Assembly (NCBI GenBank): GCA_029834535.1
Contig: JAQMWT010000023.1
Coordinates: 29,162-93,161, forward strand
Direction: 5' to 3'
DNA: 64,000 nt
Origin: Chrysophaeum taylorii
Lineage: Eukaryota; Sar; Pelagophyceae; Pelagomonadales; Pelagomonadaceae
Shown here in pieces: positions 41,728 to 64,000 of this stretch. The notes below the pieces were generated by a model. The model was not told the DNA's origin and ran no database searches. It was given only the letters and a program-made list of their open reading frames with translations. The translations under genes were made by a program, and so were the position numbers. Within the stretch, counting starts at the first letter, position 1. Each line of letters opens with the position of its first letter.

Positions 41728-42830
41728 GAATCAAAAGGTGTTTGTGCATCGTACAGTGCGACAAGCGAGCGTGCGTCTCAGTTGACTGTGAGTGTACCAG
41801 GGGTGTGGCGCAATGTTCGTAGTGTAAACCGAGAGGGGCGGTGAGCGTGCCGTCGCGAGTGCATAGGAGCCTGTGCGGTGTCTGGGCTTTAATCGGAATA
41901 TGACATATGACGTCATACAAAGCGATGGGAGCTGAATCAGACGTGATGGGACTGGCTAGTAGTGCCGGGAGCAGCATGTCGGGGGTGGCGCTCAGAGATG
42001 AGGGTGGAACGCAGTCCACTTCTATCTTGGTTGCCGTGTGTCGCGGTACTATGGGCGTAAACAAAGGACACGAAGTAAATGCTTGTGTCCCAAGCGAGAA
42101 TGCGGTTATGGTCGCATGGGGAGGTTTCATTTTGTCTCTGCTGCAGTCAAATGCTTTGGAGGAAACCAATGGAGAAACCATGAGCACATGGGTGGCGTCT
42201 GGTGGCCAAAGTTCCTGTGGGAGTGGTTGAGGTGACTCCAAAGTAGGATTCCTTCTTGGGTATGACTCAAGCGTTGCAATGAGTTCATGCTCGAGATCAT
42301 AGTCGTCCATTAGATGACCTGAGGTGGTCGCGAATGAGCGATACGTCGACCTGGTGTCAGGGAAGACCGAGGTGGTGCAGTGACTTGACTGGCTGAGGTA
42401 GCCGTGCTGGTAAAATTTCAGCGGGTGCGCATAACTCCGCAGAGTGCCGACATTGGCTTGTGCCTGATCTGCGGTCGTGCAGGGAGGCGAAATCGTCTGT
42501 GCTAATACGGATTGCAGCGACAGGGAAGGGTCAGGTGCCTGGGGGGCTGAGAGGCGGCCTTTGTCTTCCAGAGGCGAAGGGGTCAAGCAGAGCTGTAGCT
42601 TCGTCTCGTCGTGATCGGATAGGCGCAATGAGGCTGTGCGCATGATCGTGGTGCGCTTACCTGTGTTTTCATGATGTACCTTTGTGTCCTTTGATGGTGC
42701 TTCTGCGAGCGGGACATATCTTAAGGATTGGTCCATCGGATGGGGTGCATCAGCTATGAATGAGACAGGTGCCAGTAGGAGTGCAAGGTCAGGTGACAGA
42801 GCGTTTGCGTGGTCGAGTAATTGATCGTTG
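41585..42830 (-). pseudogene. Element G coding tract, third segment
   Basis: The frame 42736-41585 (383 codons) extends upstream to the SINE fragment at 42831-42885. It is Ser/Thr/Pro/His-rich with no recognised domain. Its last part overlaps the next frame near 41700, implying a frameshift. Confidence 0.5.
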
Positions 42831-42885
42831 CCTGTCCGGCCTGGCTCCCATGCTCGGGAGACGTCCGAAGTTAGTTAGTTAGTTA
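42831..42885 (+). mobile_element. SINE-like 3' fragment
   Basis: 55 bases matching only the 3' end of the SINE family (the CTCCC-ATGCTC-GGGAG hairpin and the TTAG tail). The full copy 4 is inserted just after its tail. Confidence 0.7.
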
Positions 42886-42893
42886 GGACCGGA

Positions 42894-43251
42894 CCACCCT
42901 TACCCCCTGGGTTGCGATGGAGGACGGTGCCTCATGAATCCTGAGCCTTGCGAGGGCATCCGCCCTCCCGGCGTAGGTTGGCACCTATTCGCCTCCCGGG
43001 CGGCCGGTTGGCAGCCGGGACGTTCGCGGTGGGACGGGGTATGGCCGGGGGGCGAAGACGGAAGGTTATCGACGAGTTGGTTGTCAGTCACATCGCGGTC
43101 TCCTCGTCGCATGGCGACAAGCTTGATGGTCACTCTCCGCCGACCGACCTTTCGGCGCTCCTCGCCTACAGGCCCGTGATTCCGGACTGGCTCCTGTCGG
43201 TCCGGCCTGGCTCCCATGCTCGGGAGAGGTCTGAAGTTAGTTAGTTAGTTA
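42894..43251 (+). mobile_element. SINE-like element, copy 4
   Basis: 358 bp, flanked by GGACCGGA at 42886-42893 and 43252-43259. It reads 5' to 3' on the plus strand and ends in (TTAG)n. It lies directly behind an older 3' fragment of the same family, in the same orientation. Confidence 0.85.
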
Positions 43252-43259
43252 GGACCGGA

Positions 43260-44837
43260 GCATCGTCTGCATATTCTGGGACCGTGCTGTACAGTTGGTT
43301 TGCGTTGTCTCGTCTGCTACATCTATGATCTGGCTGGTGTAGCTGGCCGTTGTGGTCTTATCTTTCGTCTTGTCGTCCTATAGAGACTGCGAGATAGTAC
43401 TCGTTGCTATGTGCGAGACTTTAAGTAGCTGTTGAGCAGCTGTTGAGAGCTGAGTGCTCTCTTGTCTGGCAGTTTCTGTTGCATTGGAGTTCCAGAGACA
43501 TGATTGCGCAGCTTCGGACGTCCTGGCATTGGGGATTGCCATAAAGTAACTCGTAAGTTCAAAGTCGGACGTCGGAAAATGCATCGAAAGACCTGTGAGG
43601 TCATCAATTAAAATACGCCCTCGTAAGGCGTGCGCGACGTGGTGCGGGCGCGAGCGACTTAGGTTCGAGATCTGAAGGTCGTGAGATACGTTGCGGCGCG
43701 GAGCGTCGGTGGAAATGAGGAGTGTCGTGGTGTTAAAGGCGGTGACGCGGAGAGCATCGAAAAGCGTGTCATGCTCCAAGAGCGAAAGCGCGTGATGCGG
43801 GTGGTCCGAAGTCAGTGCCAAAAGGGGTGTGGCTCGCGGCTGACCTGTCTGCAAGGTAGGGCAGATGGGCGCGTGAGCTGGGATCCCGTGGTGGAGAGTA
43901 TCCGGCCTGAAATGCTTGGGGTCCAGTGCGGGAAGTCGAAAAGAGGGGTCGCCGAAGGAGAGTGCAGTTGAACCAAAGGCGATGTAAGGGTCAGTCCTGC
44001 TGGGTGCATCCTCAATAGCGGAGATGCTGAGACCAGAGCGGTGAGTGCCGTAGTGACTAGGGTTTCCCTTAGGCGTGTAGAGCATTCGAAGGTGCGGGCA
44101 TGTGACATGCGTCCTCAAATGAGGAGTGACGTGCTGAGCGATAAGACGCTTTTGAGGGAGGCAACGGACGGGACTTGGGTGCATGTTTGTGGTGGAGCCG
44201 GCAGCTGGCGTGGAGCGTTTGTCGTGCATTCCAGTGATGCGAAAATGCTTACAGAAGTGGTTCAGTTGAAGCGAGTCTGTGCATAGTGCGCGGAGAATGT
44301 TTCCTGAGAGCGCAACGTCGATTTTCCGGAGGCAGCGCAAGCGTGTGGCGTCCAGAAGAGAGCTATGCAAGGGGACACCCAGGACCGAAGTGGTCGCAAT
44401 GGAATTGTTAATAGTTTGCGGCTGATCGGGTCGTTCAGAACTCTCGAAATCTGTGTCTGTTACTGCAGCCATGGGGAAGGCTTTCCATAGGCTTGGTCGC
44501 GGTGAGACATAAGGATCGGCAGCCGAAAGGATTGCGCCCTCTGACCAAAAGTTAGGGAGCGTGTGATCCGGTGTTGCGACTGGTCCTCGTGCGAAGACAT
44601 CCATCACATCGTTACATGGCGGTCGCAGATGGGTCCATGCAACCTGCTGAGCAGTGTCATTCAGTGCATCCAACCGAGAAGGTGGATGGTGGACGCAGCA
44701 GCAAGCGCCGGTGAGCGGTAGTGCGCGCCTGTCTTCGAGGAGGGGAGGCGGCGAGGCGGAACCAGCTTCGAAGTGATCGGGAGCTGCTGATCGAGAGATA
44801 TCGAACAAGGCGGGAGTGCCTGGTGAATCTGAGCTGA
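43260..44837 (-). pseudogene. Element G coding tract, second segment
   Basis: The frame 45078-43378, of which only the part from 44837 belongs to G; the first part is SINE. It is Ser/Thr/His/Pro-rich and includes H-A-L-R-G-R-I-L-I near 43615. The single stop at 43378 is followed by open frame to the SINE at 43251. Removing SINE copy 5 and one target copy joins this frame in register with the segment upstream of 45245. Confidence 0.55.
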
Positions 44838-44844
44838 TACCTGC

Positions 44845-45237
44845 GATCGCTAACCGTTGGTTGCGATGGAGGACGGCGCCTAACACGCTTGCTCCCTGCG
44901 GCGGCCCCGGCCGTCCCGGAGTGAGACGGTGCCTGCTCGCCTCCCGGGCTGGCCGGTTAGCACCCGGAAAGTCCGCGCTGGGATGGGGTTCGCTCGGTTG
45001 GGCAGAACGCGACGGACAGGTCGATAGTTCGTGGACCAACACGTCCGCGGCCTGCGACGCTTTTGCACGACCTCGCACAAGACCGCGCGCAGTGACGGTC
45101 CACCATCAACGAGTCCGTCCTCGTCCCTCGCCTCTGCCCCAACTGCGTGATTTTCCTCTGTGATTCCGTACCGGCTCCTGCCGGTCCGGCCTGGCCCCCA
45201 TGCTCGGGAGAGGTCTGAAGTTAGTTACTTAGTTAGT
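44845..45237 (+). mobile_element. SINE-like element, copy 5 (divergent subfamily)
   Basis: 393 bp, flanked by TACCTGC at 44838-44844 and 45238-45244. The 5' end (GGTTGCGATGGAGGACGG) and the 3' hairpin/TTAG tail match the family. The middle, about 44895-45150, is largely different, so this is a distinct subfamily or a chimera. Confidence 0.75.
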
Positions 45238-45244
45238 TACCTGC

Positions 45245-47692
45245 AGGTGCGGTGAGTGCCTGCGAGTATGGTGACCGTGGGGCCGTTGACAGCGTGTCTT
45301 GTCCTTGTGGATTCGGCATTGCGGGGTCATTGGTGGTGCTTGGATCAGGCGGCTGATCGGGAATGGTCGAGGAGACCATCTTCGAGACTTGTGAAGTGGG
45401 TCTTGCTACTTTGCTGTATGCATCATACCAGGGGACTGAATCAGAGGGGATGTTGTCAGTGGCCTGCGGCTCTTGTGCCCGGTGCATGGAATACGGCGGA
45501 GCTTTAGATTCTTGGGTGTGGTTGCCATAGTCGATGTAGGCGTAATACTCGGGAACATCTCGAGGTGTCTTGGTCTTTGACTTGTCGAAAGTGGGAACGA
45601 GATAGCTTGGTGTTTCTTCGACAAGATTGCTTCCTGGGTCGTTGTGCCCGAAGAGAGAAGAAGCCCTTATGCAGGTCTCGGCAGCATGATGGTGAGTATG
45701 ACCATATGGTAAAGAGCTGTCTTTTGATAGTTCGGAGCTCGTCGACTCTTGATGTGGGTGGTCTTGATTCTTGGTGGGACTTTGCACGTGGTGATCTTCG
45801 CTGGTGGTAGGGGTACGGTCGCCGGCGTTGAATGTACGTCCTCGCAACTCGGACGCGGGGATGTGGTCGAGTTGGAATGAACCAGGTAGCTGATAAGGCG
45901 AGCGGGTGCAAAGTGGTTCAGGGGGTGCCAAAGAGGCGAAAAGTGAGTGGGTAGAGGAGGAGGGGCCAGGGATGGCGGGGGTTTGAGAACAGAGAGACGG
46001 AGTGGGTGGTGAACCAGGAGAACCGGGTCCAGGGCATCCGTGGAGGTGGTGATGATACTCGGGGAGAATCGGGGGAGAGGCATTGGAGGTTGGTTCGGAA
46101 GGGGATGAAGGTTGGTTGTGGATGGGGAAAGGAGGTGAAAGATGCGATGCAGCATCTTGGGTGGGGTGAGTGGCATCCAATGAGGTAAGAATGGTCTGGA
46201 GGACGGCGTTGGTTTCAAGGTGGGAGCTGCGGATGTCAGCGTGGGCAGTTTCGAGTGCCTTGAGCTGGGTGTGGGTGAGATGGTGTTCGTTCGGCTTGGG
46301 TGGAGACCAGTTCGTCGGCTTGGATGGCGAGCTGGGCAGTGGCGAAAGTCAGGGCGGCGTCGGTGGTGGTGAGTTTGTTGGCTGTGGAGGACAAAGCGCC
46401 ATCCTTGCGAATGAGCATGGCCTTAGTTGCGGCCAATTCAGCGGTTTGGGAGCGGAATGCAGCCGTAGTTGTGGCCAACTCGCGTTGGAGCTCAGACGGA
46501 GGTGCATTGGAACTTGGAGAAAGGAGGTGGGTGGGTGCTTGAGTGGGGACGGAGGAATGTTGGTAGTCGTGGAATGCATAGTCACGCGGGTGGAGGGGCA
46601 AATCGTAGGAACAGGGACTTTCGAAAGGTGATGAAGGTCTGTCATGAGGGTGCGATGGTTGGGCGGCAGGAACTTGAGCCGCGGAAGGAGCTGTGGTAGA
46701 AATGGAAGTGCCGGGGCCGTCGTGGCCGTAGGTGGCATGGTCTTGTGGATGGACAGGAAAGTCCTGAGGAGAGTGACTTGCGGAAGATGAAGGATATCGG
46801 ACAAGGGAATCCGACAGTGGGGCGGCATGAGCTTGAGCCGCGGGGGGGGCTTTGTAAGGGATGAAGGTGCCGGGGCCGTCATGGCCGTATATGGCATGAT
46901 CACCAAGGAAATGAGTGGTGCGGCGAGGGGGTTGACGAGGATGTTGGGGAACTACAAGTTGTATGGGTGGTGTAGCGGGAGTCGCCGATAGTGGGGAGTT
47001 AGGCTCCAGTGAAGGAGGTGGAGGCTCCGGTGGGGTTGGCGGAGTGAAGGGAGTAGTGTTTATTGGTGGTAGTGGTGAATGTTCAATATTGCTGGTGCAA
47101 TATTCGAACAAGGTGAAGTGTTCTCGTGAATGTGGGGTGTGCTAGGTTGTGGAGTAACCTTGGCTATGCCTGGGTCCAGAGGGAAGGCAGTGGGGTCTGA
47201 GACTTTGCCGTGGGGTGTTTGATATCCGGTGGGGTTGTCGGCATGAGGGGGGGTGACCATCGAGATGATCGGGTCTTGGGTCGCGACTTCGTGAGAAGTT
47301 GGCTTTTGCTTGAGGGGAGTTGCCGTATGAACAGCTGGTTGGGGAGCTTGATCAAGTTGCTCGTCTTGATCGAGTTGCACGTCTTGATCGAGTTGCTCGT
47401 CTTGATCGAGTTGGTCGTATTGAGCTTCGATTGCGGCAGCGAATTTTTGCACATGCGCACCCTCTACTCCGATGCATTCAAGCCTTACTTTAGCCAGCAC
47501 ATTACTTATTTGTAATTATTATTTATTTTCGGCGAGCGCAGCTCTTTCGGCAGCGTGTTTGGTTCTTAAGGCAGCGTGATCAGCGGCGATCTGATCAAGG
47601 AGGTTAGCTTCGAGCTGGTGCCAGAGAGCTTGTTGTGTAGCGAATTGCGTCGCTACTCCCAGACTCGGGACTTGTGGGTCTTGAGTCGCCAT
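45245..47692 (-). pseudogene. Element G coding tract, N-terminal part with coiled coil
   Basis: It starts with M-A-T-Q-D-P-Q-V at 47692 and gives a helical N-terminus of about 55 residues. TAA-TAA follows at about 47520-47525, but the same frame continues (47500-47060) with a D-Q-[DE]-x-Q-L tandem repeat. A shift leads to the frame 47111-46236: Pro-rich, two copies of Y-G-H-D-G-P-G-T in repeats of about 40 residues, then an Ala/Thr/Leu-rich coiled coil. The coil continues through a shift near 46300 into the frame ending at 45233. That last segment is Pro/Ser/His-rich and holds S-E-L-R-G-R-T near 45840. A coiled coil plus disordered tail would suit a structural Gag-like protein, but that is inference. 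Confidence 0.55.
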
Positions 47693-47913
47693 CGTTTTCG
47701 GGGTTGCGTTTTGCGCGTTGTTGGTTGCCTTTCACACTTTTTCACACTTTTTCACCAGTAGCAAGCGATGAAACTTGTCTACGGTCTTAAAACTTTCAGG
47801 AACTCCAGGAGATTGCTCTTTTCTGGAAATCCTGTTTCTTTGTCCGAGATGTCGATCGAGATCGATGTCTTTCGGAGGACGTTTCTCTACCAGTACCGGA
47901 TTGGGTCCTTACC
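47693..47913 (-). other. Element G 5' leader
   Basis: No coding region seen. On the element's strand the bases after the LTR read GGTAAGGACCCAATCCGG; I cannot match this to a primer tRNA with confidence. Confidence 0.4.
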
Positions 47914-48108: not shown

Positions 48109-50218
48109 CTCATAGTCTGTTCGGGATCATTCTTTATCACATAGCCATCATCATATGCAGGCTGAAAATCGCTGAACTCTTCGTTCGTGAGTAATACGCC
48201 GGGGCTTTCACAGAGCTCCAAAGGCGGTTCATGCATTATAAGGTTCTTCACCTCTTCAGATTTCGCATCCATTTTCTCGGCCTATCATCCGCTCCATCGC
48301 TTAAAATATCGGCAATCGCCTCGTCACTAAAAATGTCGGCACACGAAATGTCTGCCATCGTCAAAAAGAACAAAACATCTGCAAAAACGTCTGCAATCGG
48401 TTCGTCGGGGGGCCCTGCAAAAGAAGAAGGCGTCGTCCCCGACGTCATATCTGTCAAGAAATGGCCACCAAAGGGCACGTGACGTTCGATGGGCGTGTAA
48501 ACAGGTGCGCGCTTATCATTCGAGATAATCCTCTGCGACGCATCGTTGATCGATCGTGGAGACGAAGTGTCATCCACCTGAATGTCCGGAGGTAGGCTCA
48601 TAGCATCGAGCGGAGCAGCGGCGGGTACATTCCGTTGGGCGTCATCGGCTGCACGGGGCTCGTAAATCGGATTCGAACATAACTCAGGCGCGTCGTCAAA
48701 ACCAAGGGTTGTGCCTGCTGACGACAAATCATATCGTGCCACAAACGGTGACACCGGGTCAGAAGCGGTTGTTGGCTTCGGCCCGTAGTTTGACGACGTT
48801 TCGGTCAGATTTCTCCGAGGGTCGGAATTCTCCCTCAGGACTGCTCGCTCGCCTCGAGCGACTCGGCGTACGCAATTCATCCCTCTCGCGGGTCAACCAT
48901 CGTACTTGCTCGTGTATCTCATCTAATCGAGCGTGTTCGTGCCGCAGTTGCTCTTGCATTTCTTCTATCTCATTCTGGCGTAGCCATTCACGCCGTATAT
49001 TCTCTTCTTCTATCAGCCGGATGAGGATCTCTTGTGCGCGCTTATTTTCTCAGCGTATCTCGCGTAAATGGGCTTCGTAAATCCCTGTAACGTTCGGTGG
49101 TTCATCGTCTCGCGCACGTTCTGGATGAGCTGCCGGTTGCCTCGCCGGCGGCACCCTCGGCGGTTCATCGCCGTTGTAGTTCAGTTCTTCGTCCTCATCA
49201 TCATCATCAGTGTCATCATCAGTATCATCATCATCACCATTATCATGCCGTTCGTTCGTCCCTTCGGGACGACTTGAAGGTTCGGTTTTTCCTATCTGCC
49301 CGTGAGCAGCGTCATCTTCCTCCATGTCGGCTCCGGCTCTAATCGGCCAAAGTCGGAACGGGTCCAAAAAGGTTGAGTCGTCGTCGTTCTCGTGCTCCTA
49401 CGACTCTGGGACTTCCACTCGTCCACGTCACGCGCAATATCGTCGCTGCGTGCGTCTTCCACCGACTGATCTATCAGCTCCGGTGGGCGGCAGAATTCGC
49501 GCGTTCGTATAGGCGGCGGTTCCTCCGAGGGTCGGAATTATCCCTCAGGACTGCTCGCTCGCCTCGAGCGACTCGGCGTACGCAATTCATCCCTCTCGCG
49601 GGTCAACCATCGTACTTGCTCGTGTATCTCATCTAATCGAACGTGTTCGTGCCGCAGTTGCTCTTGCATTTCTTCTATCTCATTCTGGTGTAGCCATTCA
49701 CGCCGTATATTCTCTTCTTCTGTCAGCTGGATGAGGATCTCTCGTGCGCGCTTATTTTCTCGGCGTATCTCGCGTAAATGGCGGGCTTCGTAAATCACTG
49801 TAAGGTTCGGTGGTTCATCGTCTCGCGCACGTTCTGGATGGGCTGCCGGTTGCCTCGCCGGCGGCGCCCTCGGCGGTTCATCGCCGTTGTAGTTCAGTTC
49901 TTCGTCCTCATCATCATCATCAGTATCATCATCATCATCATCATCATGCCGTTCTTTCGTCCCCTCGGGACGACTTGAAGGTTCGGTTTCTCGTGTCTGC
50001 TCGTCAGCAGCGTCATCTTCCTCCATGTCGGCTCCGGCTCGCTCCAATCGGCCAAAGTCGGAACGGGTCCGAAAAGGTTGAGTCGTCGTCGTTCTCGTGC
50101 TCCTACGACTCTGGGACTTCCACTCGTCCACGTCACGCGTAATATCGTCGCCGCGTGCGTCTTCCACCGACTGATCTATCAGTTCCGGTGGGCGGCAGAA
50201 TTCGTCTCTGCCCGGCAA
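48109..50218 (-). pseudogene. Gag of element D/E, N-terminal and acidic part
   Basis: The frame 50218-49538 (226 codons) has the Gag start, an Asp run (from an ATC repeat) and the coiled coil E-I-E-E-M-Q-E-Q-L-R-H. The same stretch is repeated at 49520-48813 with decay. After it, 48800-48109 jumps to a diverged acidic region (M-T-S-G-T-T-P-S-S matches the acidic tract of C). The Gag core, metal cluster and RS tract are therefore deleted here. The last codons before element G (V-I-K-N-D-P-E-Q-T) continue at 39003. Confidence 0.7.
48813..50207. repeat. 710-bp tandem duplication in Gag
   Basis: 48813-49522 and 49523-about 50207 are direct repeats with a period of about 710 bp, each covering the acidic segment, Asp run and coiled coil. 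The copies differ by scattered changes and by the length of the ATC microsatellite, so the duplication is not very recent. Confidence 0.8.
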
Positions 50219-50464
50219 TCAATGCCTCAGTGAGTTGCGATCTCACTCCGCTCGCCTGCGGCAGCGGTACCCGGGTTGCGCGTCGGCTCGAACCGATCCG
50301 CGCGTCGTCACCTCCGACGACTAACGTATCCGGCCGGGGATCTTTCCCACGGCGATGGTCCCTCTCGAACTCTTCGTCGGCGCGCTTGATCAGGGCGCGC
50401 ACGGCTTGTCCGGACCGTGTAGAGAATGCAAGACGCACTCGTCCGCTGCGACCGACATGGTCGC

Positions 50465-50488
50465 TCGAATCTCATATCCTCCACCGCC
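50465..50488 (-). promoter_or_regulatory. Primer binding site of element D/E
   Basis: The plus strand reads TCGAATCTCATATCCTCCAC next to the 5' LTR, a tRNA-3'-end-like sequence identical over these 20 bases to that of element C. Confidence 0.7.
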
Positions 50489-50824
50489 TGTGGCGTAACA
50501 AGAAATTATGCCTACCTGGCTCACCTTCGAATATAGGCTCGCCGCTTGCGTCCGTGCTATTGGTCGAGTCACTGGACGAGGAAGGCCGTTCGCTCGCCAC
50601 ACAATCACAAACAACTTCCGTGCCTCGTCCTTACAACTTGAGGATCGGCTGTTGCTTTATGATTAAGATACTCTCGAATCACAGAAACCAGGGTGACACA
50701 TGTCACGGAAAAGGAAGATGATGTCATAGAGAAAACTGACATCATCAGAACGGAGTAGGGTGCCCCTGATAAGGGGGGGGCCTAGAGGAGGGGTAAGCCT
50801 TCGGAGGCGGGAGTTTCTGCCACA
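50489..50824 (-). repeat. 5' LTR of element D/E
   Basis: 336 bp, TGTGGCG to GCCACA, followed by ACAGC (50825-50829), the right target duplication. Confidence 0.9.
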
Positions 50825-53033: not shown

Positions 53034-53043
53034 TACTCTAAAA

Positions 53044-53406
53044 CTAACTAACTAACTTCAGACCTCTCCCGAGCATGGGAGCCAGGCCGGACCGACAGGA
53101 GCCAGTCCGGAATCACGGGCCTGTAGACGAGGAGCGCCGAAAGGTCGGTCGGCGGAGAGTGACCATCAAGCTTGTCGCAATGCGACGAGGAGACCGCGAT
53201 GTGACTGACAACCAACTCGCCGATAACCTTCCGTCTTCGCCCCCCGGCCATACCCCGTCCCACTGCGAACGTTCCGGCTGCCAACCGGCCCGCCCGGGAG
53301 GCGAATAGGTGCCAACCTACGCCGGGAGGGCGGATGCCCTCGCAAGGCTCAGGATTCATGAGGCACCGTCCTCCATCGCAACCGCAGTCGGCGATCAGGG
53401 TAAGGG
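53044..53406 (-). mobile_element. SINE-like element, copy 3
   Basis: 363 bp, flanked by TACTCTAAAA at 53034-53043 and 53407-53416. The mirrored site in the right arm (about 55136-55152) is uninterrupted, so the SINE arrived after the inverted duplication formed, or was lost from one arm. Confidence 0.9.
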
Positions 53407-53416
53407 TACTCTAAAA

Positions 53417-53580
53417 GCCCCAGTAAGTTCACACTTGGTCTCAGTAAGTTCACCTGGTCACTAAGTTCACCTAGTCCCAATCTCTAACCCCAGTAAGTTC
53501 ACCTGGTTCCAGTAAGTTCACCTGGTTCCAGTAAGTTCACCTGGTTCCAGTAAGTTCACCTGGTCCCAGTAAGTTAACCT
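53417..53580. repeat. Array of 19-bp repeats, left arm
   Basis: At least seven units of the form TTCCAGTAAGTTCACCTGG in tandem, with small variations, lie directly beside the helicase remnant. The right arm has fewer matching units at 55013-55075. Confidence 0.8.
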
Positions 53581-53610
53581 ATAGTGCGCGTGTAGACGCC
53601 GGGAATGGGC

Positions 53611-54170
53611 TTATCGGTATTGCGCAGCACGTGTGGGGTAGGGTGGAGTCGTCGACCCATAAGAGGATATCCTCGGGGTTGCCGATCGACAGAGAGCCAC
53701 GTAGAGCTGGACGTGGCAGAAGACGGGCTTCGCCAAGAGGACGCCGACCTCGCGGGGCGTCTGGCCCTGGCTCTTGGTGATCGTTTGGCGTCGGCGGGCC
53801 TTAAGGGATACAGGTTGGAGGAGCCTCGGTGACAACGACACGATCGATCATGTATCTGGTACCGTTGCAGTGGCCGTGCGACGGGTCGAGGTTGCGAAGA
53901 CTTTAAGCTCGCGATCAAAGTCAGCATGCCGTTGGTTGTCGGGGAGTTCAAAACTCGACTCTTGAGAGCGAGGCGTCGTCTTCCGACCCAACCTAGTCGG
54001 CCGAAAAGAACTCCGACGCCTCGTCTCCGGGAAAAAAAGGCCGCGGTCATGCGCGCGTTGTCAGCATCGACAACATCGTTTCGACGGGGCGTGAGAATGG
54101 CGCGCTGAAAGAGCCGCCGCGGGTCGTGGAAACAGTCTGCGAGGTCGCCGTAGACGGCTTGGAGGATCAC
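53611..54170 (-). pseudogene. Helitron/PIF1-type helicase C-terminus, left arm
   Basis: Two frames carry the signature. 54170-53574 has F-Q-R-A-I-L-T-P-R-R-N-D-V-V-D near its start, the block following the ATPase core. 53841-53611 has T-I-T-K-S-Q-G-Q-T-P-R-E-V-G-V, then Q-L-Y-V-A-L-C-R-S, which corresponds to helicase motif VI. A Walker motif and Rep domain are absent. It is decayed by frameshifts. Confidence 0.75.
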
Positions 54171-54216
54171 TGTCTGGCTCGCGGGCCTACCTGATCCTTA
54201 CCCTAAATCGAGGGAC

Positions 54217-54386
54217 AAACAAACTGCTCCCCACACACACCCCCCTCTTAGCAGTCGACATTTAAAGACAAACAAACCTTCCTTCATGCTCCCCACACAC
54301 ACCCCCCTCTTAGCAGTCGACATTTAAAGACAAACAAACCTCTTAGCAGTCCTTACTACTAATCGATGTCTGTCTGTCTGTCTGTC
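54217..54386. repeat. Spacer of the inverted repeat with tandem units
   Basis: Two units of about 65 bp carry CCCCACACACACCCCC and GCAGTCGACATTTAAAG (54230-54330). They are followed by (TCTG)n at 54368-54387. A third, isolated copy of the unit is at 51895-51936. Confidence 0.75.
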
Positions 54387-54437
54387 TGTCCCTCGATTTA
54401 GGGTAAGTATCAGGTAGGCGCGCGAGCCAGGCAGGCA

Positions 54438-55019
54438 TTGATCCTCCAAGCCGTATACGGCGACCTCGCAGACCACGACCCGCTTCGGCGCGACATTCTC
54501 ACGCCCCGTCGAAACGATGTTGTCGATGCTGACAACGCGCGCATGACCACGGCCTTTTTTTCCCGGAGACGAGGCGTCGGAGTTCTTTTCGGCCGACTAG
54601 GTTGGGTCGGAAGACGACGCCTCGCTCTCAAGAGTCGAGTTTTGAACTCCCTGACAACCAACGGCATGCTGACTTTGATCGCGAGCTTAAAGTCTTTGCA
54701 ACCTCGACCCGTCGCACGGCCACTGCGACGGTACCAGATACATGATCGATCGTGTCGTTGTCACCGAGGCTCCTCCACCGTGTATCCCTTAAGGCCCGCC
54801 GACGCCAAACGATCACCAAGAGCCAGGGCCAGACGCCCCGCGAGGTCGGCGTCCTCTTGGCGAAGCCCGTCTACTGCCACGTCCAGCTCTACGCGGCTCA
54901 CTGTCGATCGGCAACCCCGAGGATATCCTCTTCTTGGTCGACGACTCCACCCTACTCCACACGTGTTGCGCAATACCGAAAAGCCCCCTCCCGGCGTCTG
55001 CACGCGCACTATAGGTTAA
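54438..55019 (+). pseudogene. Helitron/PIF1-type helicase C-terminus, right arm
   Basis: Mirror copy of the left-arm remnant. The frame 54438-55019 begins with a block ending D-I-L-T-P-R-R-N-D-V-V-D. The frame 54752-55084 carries T-I-T-K-S-Q-G-Q-T-P-R-E and the motif VI-like Q-L-Y-A-A-H-C-R-S. It lacks about 20 bases present in the left arm near 54480. Confidence 0.75.
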
Positions 55020-55419
55020 CTTACTGGGACCAGGTGAACGTACTGGAACCAGGTGAACTTACTGGGGTTAGAGATTGGGACTAGGCGAACTTAGTGACCA
55101 GGTGAACTTACGGAGACCAAGTGTGAACTTACTGGGGCTTTCAGAGTAAACTCAAAGCTTAGCGGCGTGTGCGGATCAAAGCAGCTTAGATTGGCGGGGG
55201 TGAGAGCGACGAGCTCGAAGGAGAGTGGGGTGAGTGGGTGTGGGTTTACGCCGAACTTACTGGGGGTAGAGATTGGGTTTACGCCGAATTTACTGGGGTT
55301 AGAGATTGGGACTAGGTGAACTTAACGGGACCAGGTGAACTTACTGGGGTTAGAGATTGGGACTAGGTGAACTTAACGGGACCAGGTGAACTTACTGGGG
55401 TTAGAGATTGGGACTAATT

Positions 55420-55757
55420 TGTGGCGTAAGGAGAATTTTAGGGGCTACCTGGCGTGCCTTCGAATCCTGGCTCGCCGATCGCGTCCGTGCCCTTGGTGGG
55501 ATCACTGGACGAGGATGGCCGTTCTCCCGCCACGCGACCACAAACAACTCCCGCGCCTGGTCCTCTCAACTTGAGGACCGGCTGTTGCTTTATGATCAAG
55601 GATATATCGAAAATCAGAAATCAGGGTGACATGCGTCACGGAAAAGGAAGATGATGTCATAGAGAACACTGACATCATCGGAACGGAGTAGGGTGCCCCT
55701 GATAAGGGGGGGCCCTAGAAGAGGGGTAAGCCTTAGGAGGCGGGAGTTGCCGCCACA
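55420..55757 (-). repeat. 3' LTR of element F
   Basis: 338 bp, TGTGGCG to CGCCACA, homologous to 30361-30696. The left boundary abuts the Helitron-type inverted repeat. A purine-rich CCAGGGGAGTCC precedes it on the element's strand. Confidence 0.88.
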
Positions 55758-55789: not shown

Positions 55790-57530
55790 GCGAGGTGCTA
55801 GCGCGAGGAGCGCGGCTTCGCCTTACGAGCATCTCGTGAACGAATCTTCTGGTAAACGCGGGTGATGATCGGTTCAGGAACTCGACCACTGCGTAAAGTA
55901 AACTTGGGGATCAACACATCAATCTCGTGCGGAGCGAAATCCGTGACACAAGGAGTTGTGTTGGAGGAAATTCGGGACTTGTCGGTGAAACTTCGACCTT
56001 CAACGTCCTTGAACTCGGGCTTGAGCTTGCGGTGCGAAAGGTGAGAGGTCGGCTTGAAATAAGCGACATCATCGTTCGGACCCAAATCGGAATAGAAATG
56101 TAGAGCAACACGATCATTTTGGTAATCGTAAGGCTCGTAAACTTCGGCAACATAAATCTTCTTGCGCCAATCAGAGCGCTTCCGGTCAGGAATCCGGAAA
56201 ACAACAAACTTACCGTGCTGATAATCATCACGGAAGGTTTCTTCGGGTTTGCGGATGGTTTGATCAACGATCGGAGGTACCATCACAGGCGTGATCTGAC
56301 TTACATGAACACGTCGTTCTTCGGGCGGAGAGTCGAGAGACTCAATCCTATAGGTGACCGGGGAGAGGCGTTCCTTGATAATAAACGGCCCTCGCCATTC
56401 CGGTCGAAGTTTGTTCTGAAGGAAAGGAATGTAGAGCAAAACGTGCGATCCTTCCTTGTATTCAACATCAACATGATCAGCATTGTAAGCCAATCGCTGT
56501 TTCTTCAAAGCTTTATCACGAGCCTCGCGGACGATCTTTGTATAATATTTCAATCGTTCGCGAGTCTCGGCGACTGCATCAGAGCGAGTCTTCGGCAATA
56601 ATCGTGTATCAAAATCCATGAGCGTGTAGTCAGTCGGTAGCATCGGCTGACGGTTCAGGCGCAGCATAAAGGGAGAAATCTGCGTGCCTGGAATAAACTT
56701 GCGGTTGTAGCAAAACGCAATATAATGAGCAAAGTCAGGCCAATCCGTGATGTTCCGGCCTTGAAGGCAAGCACGGAGGAAGGCCTTGATAAATCGGTTG
56801 ACACGCTCAGCCGGGTTCGACTGGGCATGATAAGGAATCGTAGTTTGGTATCGTGTGTTAAAGAGATGGCAAAACTCGCGCATCAACTTGTTCACGAACT
56901 CTTTACCGTTGTCGGTACGAATCATCTGGGGCAAGTAGCCCTTGAGGAGGATGTTAATGACAAAAGACTCGAGGACAGACTCAGCAGTCTTATCGTTCAA
57001 AACATCCAGAATCAAGAAATGCGAGAACGGATCAAAAATACTAGAAGATACGTCTCGGGACCAGCGCTGGGCAAGGGTCCAAATAAATCCATGCAAAGAA
57101 CAGCACCATCACCATCGTAGACGGGCTGCTGCAAGAGTCCAGCTCGTTTCGGCTCAGGCGTACGAGCTTTCTGGCAAACTAAGCATTCAGCAATGAAGAC
57201 TCCAACTTCGTTCGACATGTGAGGCCACCAAAATCGTTCTTGGATAGCCTGGACGGTACTGTGACGTCCCATATGACCACCGTTAACCGGAGTGTCATGG
57301 TAGAGTCGAATAATGCGCTTGCGCAACGTAGCAGGTGCAACAATCATCGGGTGCAAATCAGCAGAAATGCGGTAAAGAACATCTTTAACGACTTCGAATC
57401 GTTCGTTCGCTCGGGAACGTCGCGGCGTCTGACCTTGGGCCATTCGGTAGCGAATATCCTCGCAAGTAGCATCAGATTCTTGCTCACGTGCGATCTCAGC
57501 GAGCGTCATATTATCGGGTATCTTATCGAT
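55790..57530 (-). pseudogene. Integrase with C-terminal module of element F
   Basis: The frame 57920-57012 holds the H-H-C-C domain (L-Y-H-D-T-P-V-N-G-G-H-M-G-R-H; C-L-V-C-Q-K) and the first catalytic Asp (M-D-L-F-G-P-L-P). A one-base deletion near 57036 shifts to the frame 57096-55798, with R-T-D-N-G-K-E-F (second Asp) and N-P-A-E-R-V-N-R (Glu). A GPF block (W-R-G-P-F-I-I-K-E-R-L) follows. After it comes a module of about 150 residues (K-F-V-V-F-R-I-P, W-R-K-K-I-Y-V-A-E-V-Y, V-A-L-H-F-Y-S) that ends near I-D-V-L-I-P-K-F. The module is conserved in element A. Its beta-strand pattern suggests a Tudor, BAH or chromo-like reader, unproven. Confidence 0.88.
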
Positions 57531-57831
57531 ATAATCTTTGTAAGCGGCTGCGTCCTTGAAGATCTGTGGCTCATCGCGCGCACGGTTCTTCCGACGTTGT
57601 CTCGTAGCGTGAGACGTAGCCAATTTCATCGGATCCTTTTCAGGGTCTTCGTCTTCGTCTTCCGGCAGTTCGGTCGTAATAAACGACATTATGAAGTGGC
57701 AGCCGGAGACGGGAACTCCTCGGTCATCAACAGGTCGGGGAAGCTCTTGGAACACTAAATAAGCGTGGTTCAAAGGTTCTCCAAACTCGTCAGTCTCGAT
57801 GACATGATCTATCGGGTTGCGGGAGAGACAG

Positions 57832-59418
57832 TCAGGGATACTCATTCCCGGTGACTTTCCCGGCTTGTAACCAACCAAGTTCAGGGTCAAAATTGGCGAG
57901 GCGCATCGCCCAACGAGCAAGCTGCCCAGACGAGTGCGTCGCCTTACGTAAAAACGTCAAATTTCGGTGATCGGTCTCCAAAACAGTCCGGTGCCCTTCG
58001 ATGTAGGCTCGAAAGTGCTCTAGAGAAAGTATAACTGCCAGCAGCTCTAGCCGACGGGGCTCATAATTCCGCATCTCCTTCGGCACAGCTCGGCTCCAGT
58101 ATTCAATTACTCGTTCTTCTCGAGTCACTCTTCCGGCATCGTCCTTGACTTCGACAATCTGGAAGAGATATGCTCCAAGTCCATCCTTGGAAGCATCGGA
58201 TCGGATCTGAAAAGGCAGATCATAATCGGCGTGGTAGACTCCACGGGAATCAACCAAAGCTTCAATAATCGTATCCCAAGCTTTCTGACACTCGGGCGTC
58301 CACTCGAACTTTACACCTTCGAGGCATAATCGTCTCAACGGTTCCACAATCTTCGAGTAGCCCTTCACATATCGCCGGCAGTAATTACTCATGCCGATGA
58401 AAGAGCGTATCTGGGTCTTCGGGGAAGTATTCGGTAAAGTACCTGGAATCGGCATCTTCTGCAGTGCTTCCAGCGTCTTCGGATTCGGCTTCAAGCCTTC
58501 TGGGGTAGAAATGTGTCCCAGAAATTCTATATCATCCTTGAGAAGGTGGAACTTCGCGGTTCGACCGCTGTACCCTCTCTGTGCCAAATGACACATCACT
58601 TCGATCAAAACTTGTAAATGTCGATGAAGATCGTCGGATCCCATCATAATATCGTCAACAAACGCAACCAAGTCTTGATACATCCATTTCGAAAGGTCGC
58701 TCGCCATTTGCTTGCAGAAAAGAGCTCCGGCCGTCTTCACACCTAGAGGTAATCGCAAGAAACTATGAGCGCCAAGTGGGCTAACCATCGTGACAGCGTC
58801 CTGCGCTGCCGGATCCAGACGAAGGTTGTGGTATCCCCATCTAATATCAATGCATGTCCGCCATCGTCTCATCGCGAGAAAGGCTAAAGCATCATCTTGT
58901 CGAATGTTTGGCCAACTGTCATTGACCAATTGATCGTTGAGCTGACGTAAGTCAACTGCAGCACGGAACGCGTTTGACGTTCCAATCTCAGCTCCTTTCT
59001 TCGGAAGCATCAACACAGGAAAGCCCCAAGGTGAGTTGGCCGGACGAATGACTCCATCCCGGCACCACTCGCTGATCTGCTTGCGGAGACAATCGAGCTT
59101 CGCAGGCGTCAATCGGTAGGGCGTCATCTTTATCGGTCGCGGATTCGCGTCTTTGAATCGTAGAGACACAGGAGGCGAGTCCACAGGTCTCATAATCGGG
59201 TCGAAAAAGGCCCAAGAATATTGCACACAGTGACGGAGCATCAGTTTCGCCTCGTCATCTAAGTGCGGATTGTCAGGAATTCCCAGCTCCTGCACAACCT
59301 TGTCAACTTCTTCCTTCGTAGGAATTTTAACTTTCATTGCTTCGTTGTCCTTGACATGCTCAGGAGTCTGCGGCAGTGGTGCACCCTCGGCATCGCGCGG
59401 CGCATCTTTCCATGGCAC
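57832..59418 (-). CDS. Reverse transcriptase and RNase H of element F
   Basis: One open frame of 528 codons with a complete RT core: L-M-L-P-K-K-G-A-E-I, A-A-V-D-L-R-Q-L-N, C-I-D-I-R-W-G-Y, F-L-R-L-P-L-G-V and the catalytic A-F-V-D-D-I (about residues 250-255), then E-F-L-G-H-I-S and F-I-G-M-S-N-Y-C-R-R-Y. RNase H follows with R-S-D-A-S-K-D-G-L-G-A-Y, R-L-E-L-L-A-V and E-T-D-H-R-N-L-T. A 4-bp tandem duplication at 57868-57879 shifts the frame just before the RNase H/integrase boundary (Y-K-P-G-K in D). It makes cDNA inside the particle. The family looks Ty3/gypsy by domain order (RT before integrase). Confidence 0.93.
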   Translation of the reverse strand: MPWKDAPRDAEGAPLPQTPEHVKDNEAMKVKIPTKEEVDKVVQELGIPDNPHLDDEAKLMLRHCVQYSWAFFDPIMRPVDSPPVSLRFKDANPRPIKMTPYRLTPAKLDCLRKQISEWCRDGVIRPANSPWGFPVLMLPKKGAEIGTSNAFRAAVDLRQLNDQLVNDSWPNIRQDDALAFLAMRRWRTCIDIRWGYHNLRLDPAAQDAVTMVSPLGAHSFLRLPLGVKTAGALFCKQMASDLSKWMYQDLVAFVDDIMMGSDDLHRHLQVLIEVMCHLAQRGYSGRTAKFHLLKDDIEFLGHISTPEGLKPNPKTLEALQKMPIPGTLPNTSPKTQIRSFIGMSNYCRRYVKGYSKIVEPLRRLCLEGVKFEWTPECQKAWDTIIEALVDSRGVYHADYDLPFQIRSDASKDGLGAYLFQIVEVKDDAGRVTREERVIEYWSRAVPKEMRNYEPRRLELLAVILSLEHFRAYIEGHRTVLETDHRNLTFLRKATHSSGQLARWAMRLANFDPELGWLQAGKVTGNEYP

Positions 59419-59545
59419 ATCGAACTTTTCTCGTATTTTAGTTTCACTTCCGGGTGGCTTTTGTTGATCCTCTCGCCTTTGACACGAACACTCGGCTCGC
59501 TCTTAATCTTCGGTTCCCGATCTCGCTCAGGATCTGGCGGAACGT

Positions 59546-61365
59546 CTAAATTTGGTTGTCGGGGGCAGCAGAAGAAGCATGAGACGTCCCCGGCTCATCT
59601 GTTGCAGGCGGAATCAACGGTACCTCTGGAGGTTTCCATTTGGTGCGATCTTGAAGATCATCAGTCGACACCCATCTTACGACACGTGTGCGCGTGTTTA
59701 ACAGCGGAACTTGTACGTGACGAAGGGTGGTTTCATCAATTTGTAAATAATAATCAAACGGTCGGTCTGCAGGACTCAACGCTGACGGCAAAGCTTCGCC
59801 GCTCAGGTGAAATTCCTTGGTCACAGAGTTGTGCAGATCGAGCATTAATAAGGCCATCGTGTCAGGTGGCACGACGGACGCCAAGTGTTTCAACGAGGTC
59901 GTCCTGGAGAAGCCGGCCCAATCAAAATCAGGGGCATAGTCAGCAACTCCGAAGTCATTTTCAGATTCAGAGATCTGCAATCGGAACGGTGCGGTCCTAC
60001 GCGAAGCGGGACACGCGTAACGGTATAAGCTGCGTCTGTCGCGGCTCGTGATGATCATAAATTGTTCATCTGAAGTAAATGTCGTTCGTCGGCGTAGCCA
60101 AGTGCTGCGGCGAACTCTTGCTGCATATTCTTGCAAGTCTTTGGAACTGCGCGCAAATGGAGCGGATGGCTGGAAACCAACAATCGCACGCGACAGCTCA
60201 TCAAACTGGGAGTTATGTCGTAAAAATTGACGACGTACACGTAAGGGTGCAAACGTGCAACGTAAGAAATAATCGAAGCCTCCTGCTCTATCAACCACAT
60301 GAAGAAACCAGCCATCTTGCATAATTTCATCGTCCAGTGGGTAGCGGTAACTCCTTTCCCAACATCTCTGGAGGTCAAGTTGCACAGAGCGGAGTGTACG
60401 CAGGGTGGCGACGCGACACACATCGACGACGACCATTCCGCGTAGGGTAAATAAGATTCGATCAACCGTAAGGTTGTAACATAGCGACCACACAGTGTGT
60501 GCTGCACCACAGGAATATTCGGAAAGTTCTTGTGGTGGATCTGGTTGGCGGTGTCCGAAGCATCGAGTGCTAGCACGACTCGAAACGACGTCCCACACGT
60601 TTCGTTGGCTCGTTGGAGACCTAAAGTACTGCCTCCGGCTCCACTGAACAGCATCACCACCTTGCGATAAGTGATTGGAAGCCATTGAACCTTTTCATAT
60701 CGGCGGCGGATCTCCGCTTCGGTGATCTCGCGGCATTTCTTTTCATCTTCTTCCGACCTTCGAGCGAAATCGTCGCTGCCTTCAGGTCGTTTGAGGGTGG
60801 ACTTGTCAGTCATAGCGGTCGTAGCGTCCTTCTGCACCGTGCTCAGCAGCATCGGCGGGGGAGATTCGTCGCATCGCGTCAAGTGACTAGCGACAGCAAC
60901 GGTGAAGGAGAGGTTCCCCTTGTCGTATCCTTCTTCACATTCTTTCGTAAGTTCGTTGATCGTAGAGACGTTCAACTCATCGTCGTACCTAACGATATCA
61001 CCAATCGCGAGAACCTCGCCTTGAGTGACGACCGTCGGCACTTCTTCCGTGGCAGTAACCGCCACCCGAGCAGCGGACCGGTCGTGCTCTTCGCAAGAAG
61101 AACACATTCCTTCGACAACTCCCAACTGCTCGTTCTCAGCAAACGTAGCGACGAAAACCTGTCCCTTTCCCATAGGTTTCGACAAAACAACCGGCAGATT
61201 GTAAGTTCGACCGGGCTCGATTTGAAGCGTGCGCGCAGCATAAGCTACTACTTCTCGTGCGTCTTCTCCCGGAGCTGGGGATAATTTGGTCGTAGCATGT
61301 CCCCGCGTAGCCAAGGCTACCTTTCGTTCCGGCGGCGGGCTTCGGAGATCTTTAATCGTGCTCAA
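59546..61365 (-). pseudogene. C5-cytosine DNA methyltransferase-like domain and linker of element F
   Basis: The frame 61365-60055 carries the beta-rich linker (I-E-P-G-R-T-Y-N-L-P-V-V-L), a charged spacer and the methyltransferase core. Motif I is V-V-M-L-F-S-G-A-G-G-S-T-L-G near 60640-60600. Motif II is L-A-L-D-A-S-D-T-A, with F-P-N-I-P-V-V following. Motif IV is M-C-V-A-S-P-P-C-V-H-S-A-L-C near 60400. The motif VI equivalent is W-L-I-E-Q-E-A-S. Motif VIII is L-M-S-C-R-V-R-L-L-V. A GGA-to-TGA change (60055-60057) and a one-base deletion near 59930 break the C-terminal part, which continues in the frame 60685-59546. Same position and motifs as in D/E and A. Confidence 0.85.
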
Positions 61366-63950
61366 ACGAGCATAAACTCGAGTCTTGACCAGGTCGAGAC
61401 TCTGCCGAAAGGCATCGTGTTGATGATTGTATGATTGTAAATCGGTGCGGTTATCGGATTTCGATCGTAAATAGATCGAAAGGTCAGGATGGGTGCATCG
61501 ACTCGTTCATCCTTAACTTTAATCTTTTTGCGCCCGTAGACGACTTGGGTTCGACAAAAACAGATCCGATCATGGGGAAAATCCACGATGGCTCCTAAAA
61601 CTCGTATATCGCGCCCTCCCAACAGGCACAGATAATTCGTATCGGCTACAATAGCGACAATGGGGGCAGCGAAATCGTCGGCGAAAGCGACCCGAAGGGC
61701 GATCCAACGATGGATCGTCGTCGTATTCAACCCTGATCCGTACGGCTTGCGCTTAATCGGAAGTTCGCCTTCATCGAAAATCAACTGATCTTTGGTCAAC
61801 TTTTTTACCATTTCTCGGCAAATATAAGAAACATCTGCCATTCCATCGACACCGATGGTCGTCGAGAATTTCGGTCCGTCACGATTCCTGTAGATGTGAC
61901 AGGCTATAAACGTTAGAGTACCCGTATCTAAACAACTGAGGGTAATCAAATCATCTTCGATCGTCTTGCCGTCTCGCGGCGTCAACGAAGTGTGAGCACA
62001 TCGGGCTCTGACTCGCTCATCTCCGGGGTTGGGCATCGATACCGCGGCTTGAGCTTTCGTATTATCTGTTGTTGGCGTCTTCGCCATAACGCTCGCGGCA
62101 GCCTCTTTATCTGGCGGCTTCCGCTCTTCCTCCAAGACAATCTCCGAGGGAATAAACGCTGGTAGGGGATCCTGGTCTTCGTAATCCTTGGAAGCAAACA
62201 ACCCCTCCCATAAATCATTCATTTCGTCGTTCCAGAATGCATCTGTGAATTCATTCGTCGCCTGCTGATCCTCATCAGCATCGGCGATCGGTTCCGTGTC
62301 AGCTGCGGCTTTGAGTCTGCAGCTGCGCGGTTGTTCTGGTGGCTTCTTTAGCAAGAAATTCCGAGCTTTCGTCCACCAATCCTGCAGGTTCCACGTCGGC
62401 TCGTCTTCGTCCCACTTGAGAACGCTGCTAATCTTCTTCATAAATCTATCCTTTTCTTCCGGCGGCGTATCCGTGTCTCGATCCGTAGTAATCGAAACCG
62501 TTTCGGGGGGGTCCGCAGGAAAAGATGGCGTCGTCCCCGACGTCAACTCTATCGTAAAATCGTCGTCTGCAATACTCGCGCTGGTCATCGTCTCGTCAGT
62601 CGAATGCGCGCACGAGCTATCACTGCAGAAATTCATGTCTGGCTCACAGCCAGTTCGGTCGCCAGCGGTCGTCTCTGGAGGGTCCAAAGATAAGCCGATG
62701 GCATCGAGGGCTTCCTCATCAAAAATAAACGGTGGGTCGTCCGTGGACGACTCGTCAAATAACGTTAACGCGGACACTGGTTCACAAAGTGTAGCTTCTT
62801 CATCTTCCGAATCTGAATCGCCTTCCCAGTATCGTGGAGCTTCAAGTTCCTCGCTCGAATCTTCGAGCTCATCGCTCGACATCTGCTCATAAATCTGTGC
62901 CAAAGACCGACGATTGGTCAGCACGTCGTTGGGTGGCTCGTCCATCGGTGGGCGAGCAAGATCTTCGAATGCGGCCGCGGCAAGGGCGTCGGCTGCGTCG
63001 TCGGTGCGGGTGTCCGTGTTCGGGTACACCGTCACTCCTAATGGTAACTGTTGACCGCAAGGGGTCGTAAATGCGAACGTTGCAGACGACTGTCCCGAGT
63101 CTTCTCGGTAACGACCATCGTCCGAATCTCGATCGCGAGATCTTCGTCGCCGGCGGCGGCGTGAATGTCTGCTAGAGCTCCTGCTATCTTTCCGTCGGCG
63201 CTGGCACGAGCTGCTACGGCTCTTGTCGTGGCGTCGGGGGCTCCGGCTATCTCGACGGCCCGTTCGTGTCGAAGACGATCGGCCGTGTCCATCTGTTAAG
63301 TGCTGCACGGTATCCATAACCGTGGTTAGCTGCGTGCCCATATCATTGAGTCTGCTCTGAATATCGTGAGCAGCGCTCGAACCGAGGGTGGCATTAGAAC
63401 TGCCGTCGTCACGCGAGTGATTATCTTTCCTTTGTCGGCTCTCCCATCGTCCTCGCGAAATGGGCTTTCTGCCGTCTTTGATGTATTTGCACATCGCTAC
63501 ATAATAGTCGTCGGGCTCGCGGTTGCAAATGACGCGGTTCCCGTGTTCATCCTTGTCGTGGGTCGCTAAGAAAAACCCACAGTCCTTGCACGTCCTCTCG
63601 AACCACTTTTTCGGATTCTCTTCGAGGCGTAAGGCTTCATATTTCGTCGTTTTATCTTTCGTTCCCGAGACGAGAGCTCGTCCTCCGCGTCCAGGCGGCG
63701 GCTTCTGCGGCTTCCCGCTCGAGGGGTTCATCGAGTTTCGGCTGTTCTTCTCCGCCATGGCTGTTGCGAAGTCGTTTTCGAGCCGCGTAATCAGCGACAA
63801 CGTAGACGTAAACGTCTTATACGTCGTCGGGTGTCCGCTGCGCATCGTTCGCACGCGGGATTTCAATTCGCTGGACTCCAGTCCACGTATCAAGTAAGAG
63901 ATGATCTCCACGTCGTTGAGATCTCGGTTGGCCACGGAACAGTATGCCAT
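61366..63950 (-). CDS. Gag core to protease of element F
   Basis: An open frame of 862 codons. Its start here is arbitrary, because homology continues upstream in another frame at 63957. It contains the Gag core (D-V-E-I-I-S-Y-L-I-R-G-L-E-S), a metal-cluster candidate T-C-K-D-C-G-F-F-L-A-T-H-D-K-D-E-H-G followed by C-N-R-E at about residues 110-135, and an RS/R-rich tract at about 210-285. The block F-T-T-P-C-G-Q-Q-L-P follows, then an acidic tract at about 330-480 and a retropepsin-like domain at about 690-800 (T-I-G-V-D-G-M-A-D-V-S-Y-I-C; V-A-I-V-A-D-T-N-Y-L). An 8-bp tandem duplication (61424-61439) shifts the frame before the linker. The polyprotein would assemble the particle and self-process. 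Confidence 0.82.
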
Positions 63951-64000
63951 GGCTTCTGCTGAAATTTAATGCAATACGAATGCACGTGACGTCCTCCAGA
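63951..64000 (-). pseudogene. Upstream Gag of element F, cut by window end
   Basis: The last 50 bases continue the Gag homology (R-H-V-H-x-Y-C-x-K-F-Q) in a different frame from 63950, indicating a small indel near 63957. Confidence 0.55.

Follow-up and report, generated by a model that had tools for sequence, protein, structure and literature searches.

The window analysed here, a stretch of 64,000 nucleotides from Chrysophaeum taylorii, has by look the character of eukaryotic repeat DNA. It holds 90 ORFs of at least 150 aa, and among the 43 that were run against Pfam, nothing was found above the cut-off except retroelement domains and DNA_methylase. Rfam and tRNA scans of the window found nothing, and no spliced-leader relic of the dinoflagellate type was found in it. 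Self-comparison resolves two related minus-strand elements, D (about 30361-39000) and F (55420 to beyond 64000), which are 91% identical across 5.6 kb, as well as a plus-strand element, A, which is more distant from both (Table 1). In each of A, D, and F, a C5-cytosine methyltransferase-like domain of about 300 residues lies ahead of the reverse transcriptase (RT).

Table 1. Coordinates of elements A, D, and F, their domains, and piece C within the window.
Feature	Position	Strand	Remarks
A, whole element	504-9873	+	LTRs 504-814 and 9562-9873, 94% identical; from self-comparison
A, target-site duplication GCTCT	499-503 and 9874-9878	+	boundaries and duplication by eye
A, methyltransferase domain	6531-7549	+	in two frames: frameshift near 6683, TAA at 6770-6772
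A, N-terminal part of RT	7952-8716	+	joined to integrase sequence near 8382-8409; separated from the methyltransferase, in the same frame, by TAA (7949-7951)
Piece C	about 25312-30206	-	LTR, leader, gag, protease, and start of linker; ends before the methyltransferase domain
D, integrase	30535-32841	-	interrupted by a 366-bp repeat at 31836-32201
D, RNase H	32826-33656	-	Pfam RT_RNaseH 9.1e-27
D, RT	33657-34757	-	Pfam RVT_1 1.7e-11
D, methyltransferase domain	35081-36034	-	uninterrupted; Pfam above cut-off, profile-profile comparison, PHROGs
D, protease and linker	36035-37452	-	in-frame stop, frame change
F, 3' LTR	55420-55757	-	repeats with 30360-30695, 29870-30204 (part), and 50488-50823; the 5' LTR would fall outside the window
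F, integrase core and C-terminal domain	55798-57108	-	Pfam rve 1e-7, Integrase_p58_C 2.1e-6
F, integrase zinc-binding domain	57012-57956	-	Pfam Integrase_H2C2 1e-18
F, RT and RNase H	57832-59502	-	Pfam RVT_1 7.8e-13, RT_RNaseH 3.7e-26
F, methyltransferase domain, motif I to X	59720-60726	-	broken: TGA at 60055-60057, frameshift near 59929/59930
F, linker, protease to methyltransferase	60727-61506	-	same open frame as the methyltransferase N-terminus; putative post-protease role, read without a profile match
F, gag-protease frame	61362-63965	-	motif IGVDGMADVSY; gag and protease assigned by position and eye, no Pfam match

Direct LTRs with a short (5-bp) target-site duplication, as in Ty3/gypsy, are present in A, and D and F show just the 3' LTR within the window. 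The similarity of 48810-50823 is limited to LTR and leader. Since C and the other pieces end earlier, all three elements that extend past the linker carry the methyltransferase-like domain; a tblastn search of the window with the domain found no fourth copy. Several other repeats share the window. A partial relative of A (9937-12720, with its own LTR at 9938-10249) directly follows it, is limited to LTR-gag, and is 75% identical. Copia-type remnants occur at 13400-13885 and 20443-21510, with matches to RVT_2 (2.9e-10) and SH3_retrovirus/rve. A repeat of about 345-366 bp is found in four copies that are 97-98% identical (17555-17920, 31836-32201, 53042-53406, and, on the opposite strand, 42910-43255). 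It ends in (TAAC)n, the single copy that was scanned lacks terminal inverted repeats, and by eye the flanks duplicate 8-12 bp (AACTTGTTC at the copy within the D integrase). The repeat resembles a SINE with a GTTA tail that was active recently. At 53418-55416, minisatellite arrays built of CCAGTAAGTTCACCTGGT-like units surround an inverted 0.8-kb repeat (53407-54224 and 54380-55148). Finally, the minus strand of 39300-47900 holds long open frames (569, 429, 575, and 371 aa) with a strong G skew, for which no Pfam match was found at 0.1.

With regard to the domains of Pol, Pfam places RT, RNase H, the H2C2 zinc domain, and the rve integrase in this order in D and F. RT followed by RNase H and then integrase is the Ty3/gypsy arrangement. 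The RT of A is matched to that of D only over residues 5-214 of 366, and neither the RNase H of D nor its first integrase ORF has a match in A; as the match of A to F stops at 8382 and resumes at 8409 as integrase, A lacks the last part of RT, all of RNase H, and the first part of integrase. A motif IGVDGMxD(V/A)(S/T)YI, which is conserved across the three elements, is read by eye as a putative protease, for which no Pfam match was found. The original prediction of a colinear series of protease, linker, RT, RNase H, and integrase holds for D and F, with the protease recognized by eye, and only in part for A, which has lost some of it.

The methyltransferase-like domain is preserved to different extents in the three elements. 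An open frame of 506 codons in D (34985-36505) spans it entirely, with frame changes on each side of the domain, and in A the methyltransferase and RT share one frame save for a single stop codon. No copy in the window, as assembled, has an intact pol. Between A and D, 139 of 303 aligned residues of the domain are identical (46%), the last 230 being aligned without gaps. The original prediction had located the domain at 6580-7951 (A), 36445-34985 (D/E), and 61365-59546 (F); it is present at these positions with a narrower core, and what lies outside the core in the F interval is linker and spacer.

Profile libraries point to DNA methyltransferases. Search with Pfam DNA_methylase (PF00145), the check put forward with the original prediction, gives 26.4 bits for D (E 5.6e-6), above the cut-off of 22, and 19.5 bits for F (7.4e-4), below it; the two frames of A have no Pfam methyltransferase match. 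In PHROGs, D and F each match three families, all of DNA methyltransferases, at best with 1.3e-7 (D) and 2.9e-7 (F) and at worst with 0.22 and 0.25, respectively; no PHROG methyltransferase match was found for the C-terminal frame of A, the sole A frame given. The NCBIfam model TIGR00675 (dcm) is matched at 0.0013 by D and 0.0016 by F, far under its cut-off. Among solved structures, the best phmmer match is DNMT2 (E 0.03), three of the eight rows being DNMT2 and five the unrelated GGA1, and a profile search returned three rows, all C5 methyltransferases (E 0.39-0.92). At E up to 10, tblastn gave an annotated cytosine methyltransferase for seven of the ten plasmid matches listed (out of 18 records) and a methyltransferase annotation on three of the five phage matches. 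No relatives of the methyltransferase were found in IMG/VR and GTDB genomes, and none of the RT in IMG/VR.

Profile-profile comparison was made by hhalign with a query alignment composed of D and separate fragments of F and A. Against 12 bacterial, archaeal, and phage methyltransferases it scored 86.2 (200 column shuffles: mean 14.2, maximum 23.6), a value that is flattered because 11 of the 12 references had been chosen as tblastn matches of window sequences; this bias is not shared by the Pfam and PHROG results. These references comprise four of the five phage matches (H4 excepted), seven of the ten listed plasmid matches (18 records; H10, H11, H15, and eight unlisted ones were left out), and E. 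coli Dcm, taken by name. From 19 loci similar to the enzyme of Aphanizomenon phage CL131, 11 entered a second profile set and five the tree described below; 27 Dcm loci and the CL131 phage survey stayed outside the reference sets. With these 11 CL131-like enzymes of phages, the whole query alignment scored 76.7 (maximum of 100 shuffles, 32.9). Residues 1-90 supply most of the score obtained with the 12 references (64.5). Residues 91-318 alone reach 27.4, against a maximum of 22.8 in 200 shuffles, and align to the methyltransferase end (motifs IX-X); residues 111-318 reach 32.2 with the CL131-like set, against a maximum of 25.3 in 100 shuffles. Residues 120-230 score 13.0, which is chance level. 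Twelve other ORFs of the window gave 11.6-20.8 with the 12-reference set and 10.7-19.1 with the CL131-like set, these controls being single sequences and the window family a small alignment. As judged by such comparisons, the domain is shown to be homologous to C5 methyltransferases at both of its ends. The central claim of the original prediction, a methyltransferase-like domain between protease and RT in three elements, is borne out by Pfam for D, by PHROGs for D and F, by the shuffles and control ORFs, and for A through its identity to D.

As for individual motifs, the S-adenosylmethionine-binding motifs I-II have profile support through Pfam in D, motif I being canonical (FSGAGG) in D and F. 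The PPC of motif IV, with its Pro-Cys nucleophile, is found in A, D, and F, and the region reads PCVHSALC where PCQxFS is usual. Motifs IX-X have profile support, their C-terminal scores exceeding all shuffles. Since residues 120-230 match at chance, motifs VI and VIII can be placed by spacing only: the candidate for motif VI is IEQE at Cys+38 (usually ENV), the Cys-to-Glu spacing of 38 being the same as in HhaI and HaeIII, and that for motif VIII is SxRxR ending at Glu+34, without the Gln that usually precedes RxR (QxRxR). Of the motif series I, II, IV, VI, and VIII that had been predicted, I, II, and IV are supported by profiles, VI and VIII by position only, and IX-X can be added. Conservation between A and D is highest in a stretch of 25 residues that starts at PPC, with 80% identity compared with 46% overall, and that would give the family a catalytic-loop signature, PPCV[DH]SALCNLT[AS]RD[AV]GKGV. 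C5 methyltransferases use this Cys as their nucleophile, and the loop that follows closes on DNA, so that conservation of this block is what catalysis would predict.

From the window rows only, AlphaFold reached a pLDDT of 32, and Foldseek found no match for that model at E 0.001. With 11 phage methyltransferases in the alignment, pLDDT was 53.7 and pTM 0.60. Blocks averaged 58-88 in residues 21-100, 62-83 in 251-300, and 25-48 in 101-250; the PPC motif falls in a low-confidence part (block 101-110: 44). Foldseek then returned 1368 matches at E up to 10, of which 18 were at 0.001; the 50 listed are all C5 methyltransferases, with a TM of at most 0.42 and an rmsd above 11 in alignments of more than 300 columns. 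Since known methyltransferases had been added to its alignment, the second model can serve as a consistency check only, and since MAFFT misplaced the middle of that alignment it is not independent proof.

Selection on the domain was assessed by Ka/Ks (Nei-Gojobori) in the D-F pair. Over 317 codons, the methyltransferase has 24 nonsynonymous and 42 synonymous differences and a ratio of 0.17. The ratio is 0.13 for RT, 0.16 and 0.32 for the integrase ORFs, 0.23 for RNase H, 0.23 and 0.34 for the parts of the linker ORF, 0.38 for protease, and 0.49 for gag, showing that the methyltransferase domain has evolved under purifying selection comparable to that on RT and integrase. Between A and D, pS is 0.73, near saturation, with a pN of 0.385 and 44.5% of residues kept. 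As synonymous sites are nearly saturated while this share of residues is kept, the domain predates the split of A from D/F. That the copies might be assembly chimeras, or a host methyltransferase gene hit by element insertions, was considered and rejected as highly improbable: the domain occupies the same place in three copies that are 91% identical in DNA (D-F) and 46% in protein (A-D), and the same arrangement at two levels of divergence makes an assembly chimera unlikely. Neither a lack of profile matches, nor a significant match to an unrelated fold, nor a chimera, the outcomes named beforehand as contrary to the original prediction, occurred. The link between this Pol, attributed to Ty3/gypsy from domain order and LTRs, and a divergent C5 methyltransferase-like domain is real and old.

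If the elements marked their own copies, as had also been suggested, a mutational footprint might be expected. CpG observed/expected is 1.29 in A, 1.26 in D, and 1.30 in F, and the three LTRs for which it was calculated give 0.99, 1.03, and 0.87, so that CpG depletion is absent over the elements. The C/T differences per C site between D and F amount to 116/1068 (0.109) in CG, 54/535 (0.101) in CHG, and 158/1526 (0.104) in CHH; by next base, CT is highest (0.135), CC lowest (0.084), and CG at 0.112. Comparisons of gag were made for 24416-30206 (C) with 60000-64000 (F) and 36000-38658 (D). They give 55/375 (CG), 24/167 (CHG), and 80/401 (CHH) for C-F, with CT (0.249) and AC (0.246) highest, and 33/349, 20/157, and 40/376, respectively, for C-D, with C before T highest (0.135). 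The LTR pair of A, which has few sites, gives 2/34, 4/25, and 6/79. Since CG is nowhere clearly raised, the copies bear no sign of long-term CG methylation. The footprint tells against heavy, maintained self-methylation at CG, and the idea that the element marks its own copies finds no backing in CpG content or in D-F C/T differences at CG, CHG, or CHH; transient methylation of cDNA is not affected by this result.

Retrotransposons bearing a methyltransferase had been named from a dinoflagellate and a charophyte, and both precedents are confirmed by PMC5890265, which describes SymbioLINE-Dnmt and SymbioDIRS-Dnmt3 (dinoflagellate; a LINE and a DIRS) and KnitGypsy-Dnmt3 (charophyte; a Gypsy). 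PMC12344493 reports Dnmt3 in streptophyte and dinoflagellate retrotransposons (LTR Copia and DIRS, citing PMC5890265) and orphan DNMTs in SymbioLINEs, and PMC9998398 surveys the DNMTs of SAR. Beyond PMC5890265 and PMC12344493, no such elements were found by title or start of abstract among the papers listed, in a search whose scope excluded most subscription journals and bioRxiv preprints. According to PMC5890265, KnitGypsy-Dnmt3 of Klebsormidium nitens resembles the present elements in its Gypsy-type domains, its cytosine methyltransferase in the Pol frame, and purifying selection. It differs in that its enzyme groups with Dnmt3, whereas the one described here, compared by description only, lacks a clear Dnmt3 affinity, and in that its repeats are DIRS-like, whereas A has plain direct LTRs and a 5-bp duplication. 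SymbioDIRS-Dnmt3 of Symbiodinium also carries its methyltransferase in the Pol frame, and that domain methylates CG in yeast (PMC5890265); however, DIRS elements integrate by a tyrosine recombinase, unlike D and F with their DDE-type rve integrase and H2C2 zinc domain. SymbioLINE-Dnmt of Symbiodinium is likewise a retrotransposon, and its methyltransferase is an orphan that belongs to none of the established eukaryotic groups, but it is a LINE whose enzyme lies in an ORF upstream of RT and it is depleted in CpG (PMC5890265), which the elements here are not. Among phage enzymes, that of CL131 has a similar motif I and is the only one of 17 single references to match best at motifs IX-X (30% over 53 residues, 55.0); such phage or bacterial C5 methyltransferases are, in contrast, stand-alone enzymes with canonical motifs.

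The likeness to KnitGypsy-Dnmt3 raises the question of whether the enzyme is of the same lineage as that of KnitGypsy-Dnmt3 or SymbioDIRS-Dnmt3, i.e., derived from Dnmt3 and diverged past recognition. The occurrence of Dnmt3 in a Gypsy Pol (PMC5890265) lends it some plausibility, as do two spacings. From the Glu of motif VI to the second Arg of motif VIII there are 34 residues, nearer to DNMT3A (36) and DRM (37) than to DNMT2 (43) and the bacterial and phage enzymes (43-54). From that Arg to motif X there are 101, nearer to DNMT3A (97) than to DRM (127, 129), and farther from DNMT2 (148, 166) and the bacterial set (127-191, 7 of 12 measured). The Cys-to-Glu spacing of 38, however, is unlike DNMT3A (46) and DRM (40) and is within one of that in 7 of the 12 bacterial and phage references (37-38). 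Profile scores decrease from the mixed and CL131-like sets to DNMT2 (n = 2; 49.3) and then DNMT3/DRM (41.4), the sets differing in size and diversity, and with DNMT3A/DRM the C-terminal half does not exceed the shuffles (21.2 against 23.3 in 150). A maximum-likelihood tree of 24 rows, built without DNMT1, DNMT5, and DNMT6, puts the window rows outside the DNMT2-DNMT3-Dcm group (98/97), which argues weakly against a Dnmt3 origin, the branch being 3.63 long and the composition of D flagged. Descent from Dnmt3 is on balance rather unlikely, and the sequence evidence leans away from it and towards a separate capture. It can tentatively be proposed, at somewhat less than an even chance, that a Ty3/gypsy lineage made an independent capture of a C5 methyltransferase that was not a Dnmt3 and was perhaps of prokaryotic or viral origin, that the enzyme stayed between the protease linker and RT over a long divergence and acquired a loop signature of its own, and that this event was separate from the captures in Symbiodinium and Klebsormidium.

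Regarding function, we see an about even chance that this is a Ty3/gypsy family whose Pol includes, after the post-protease linker and ahead of RT, a divergent C5-cytosine methyltransferase domain that is catalytic, is packaged with Pol, and acts on cDNA or RNA before integration. Catalysis is suggested by the PPC motif and the following loop, which form the best conserved block. The domain would be packaged as part of Pol and could then methylate newly made element cDNA, or element RNA, prior to integration; this methylation might disguise or protect the cDNA or RNA, or shape chromatin at the new site. Alternatively, the methyltransferase fold may have been kept and its activity lost, leaving a nucleic-acid-binding or scaffold module of Pol. 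DNMT3L is a non-catalytic relative, and departures of motifs IV, VI, VIII, and X from consensus as well as the missing methylation footprint are consistent with such a role; conservation peaking at the Cys motif and the loop behind it, and a canonical motif I in D and F, speak against it and make it unlikely. A DNMT2-like action on RNA (such as primer tRNA or genomic RNA), stabilising it or aiding priming, is also rather improbable. It would agree with the best sequence matches among solved structures, which are DNMT2/tRNA methyltransferases, and with the lack of a DNA-methylation footprint in the copies, and RNA methylation was raised for SymbioLINE-Dnmt by the authors of PMC5890265; but the DNMT2 match in phmmer spans motifs I-II only, and the profile score with two DNMT2 is lower than that with the twelve other references, in sets that differ in size and diversity.

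We rate the element family described here as a variation, not seen before, on a type of retrotransposon that is already published. Retrotransposons with the class of enzyme used to silence them have been reported from few lineages (PMC5890265 and PMC12344493). Another example, different in structure and with an uncommon loop at the active site, would demonstrate that captures of this kind happen repeatedly, and it would offer a fresh way to test the role of the enzyme, which may be to disguise cDNA, to protect it, to act on RNA, or to bind without catalysis.
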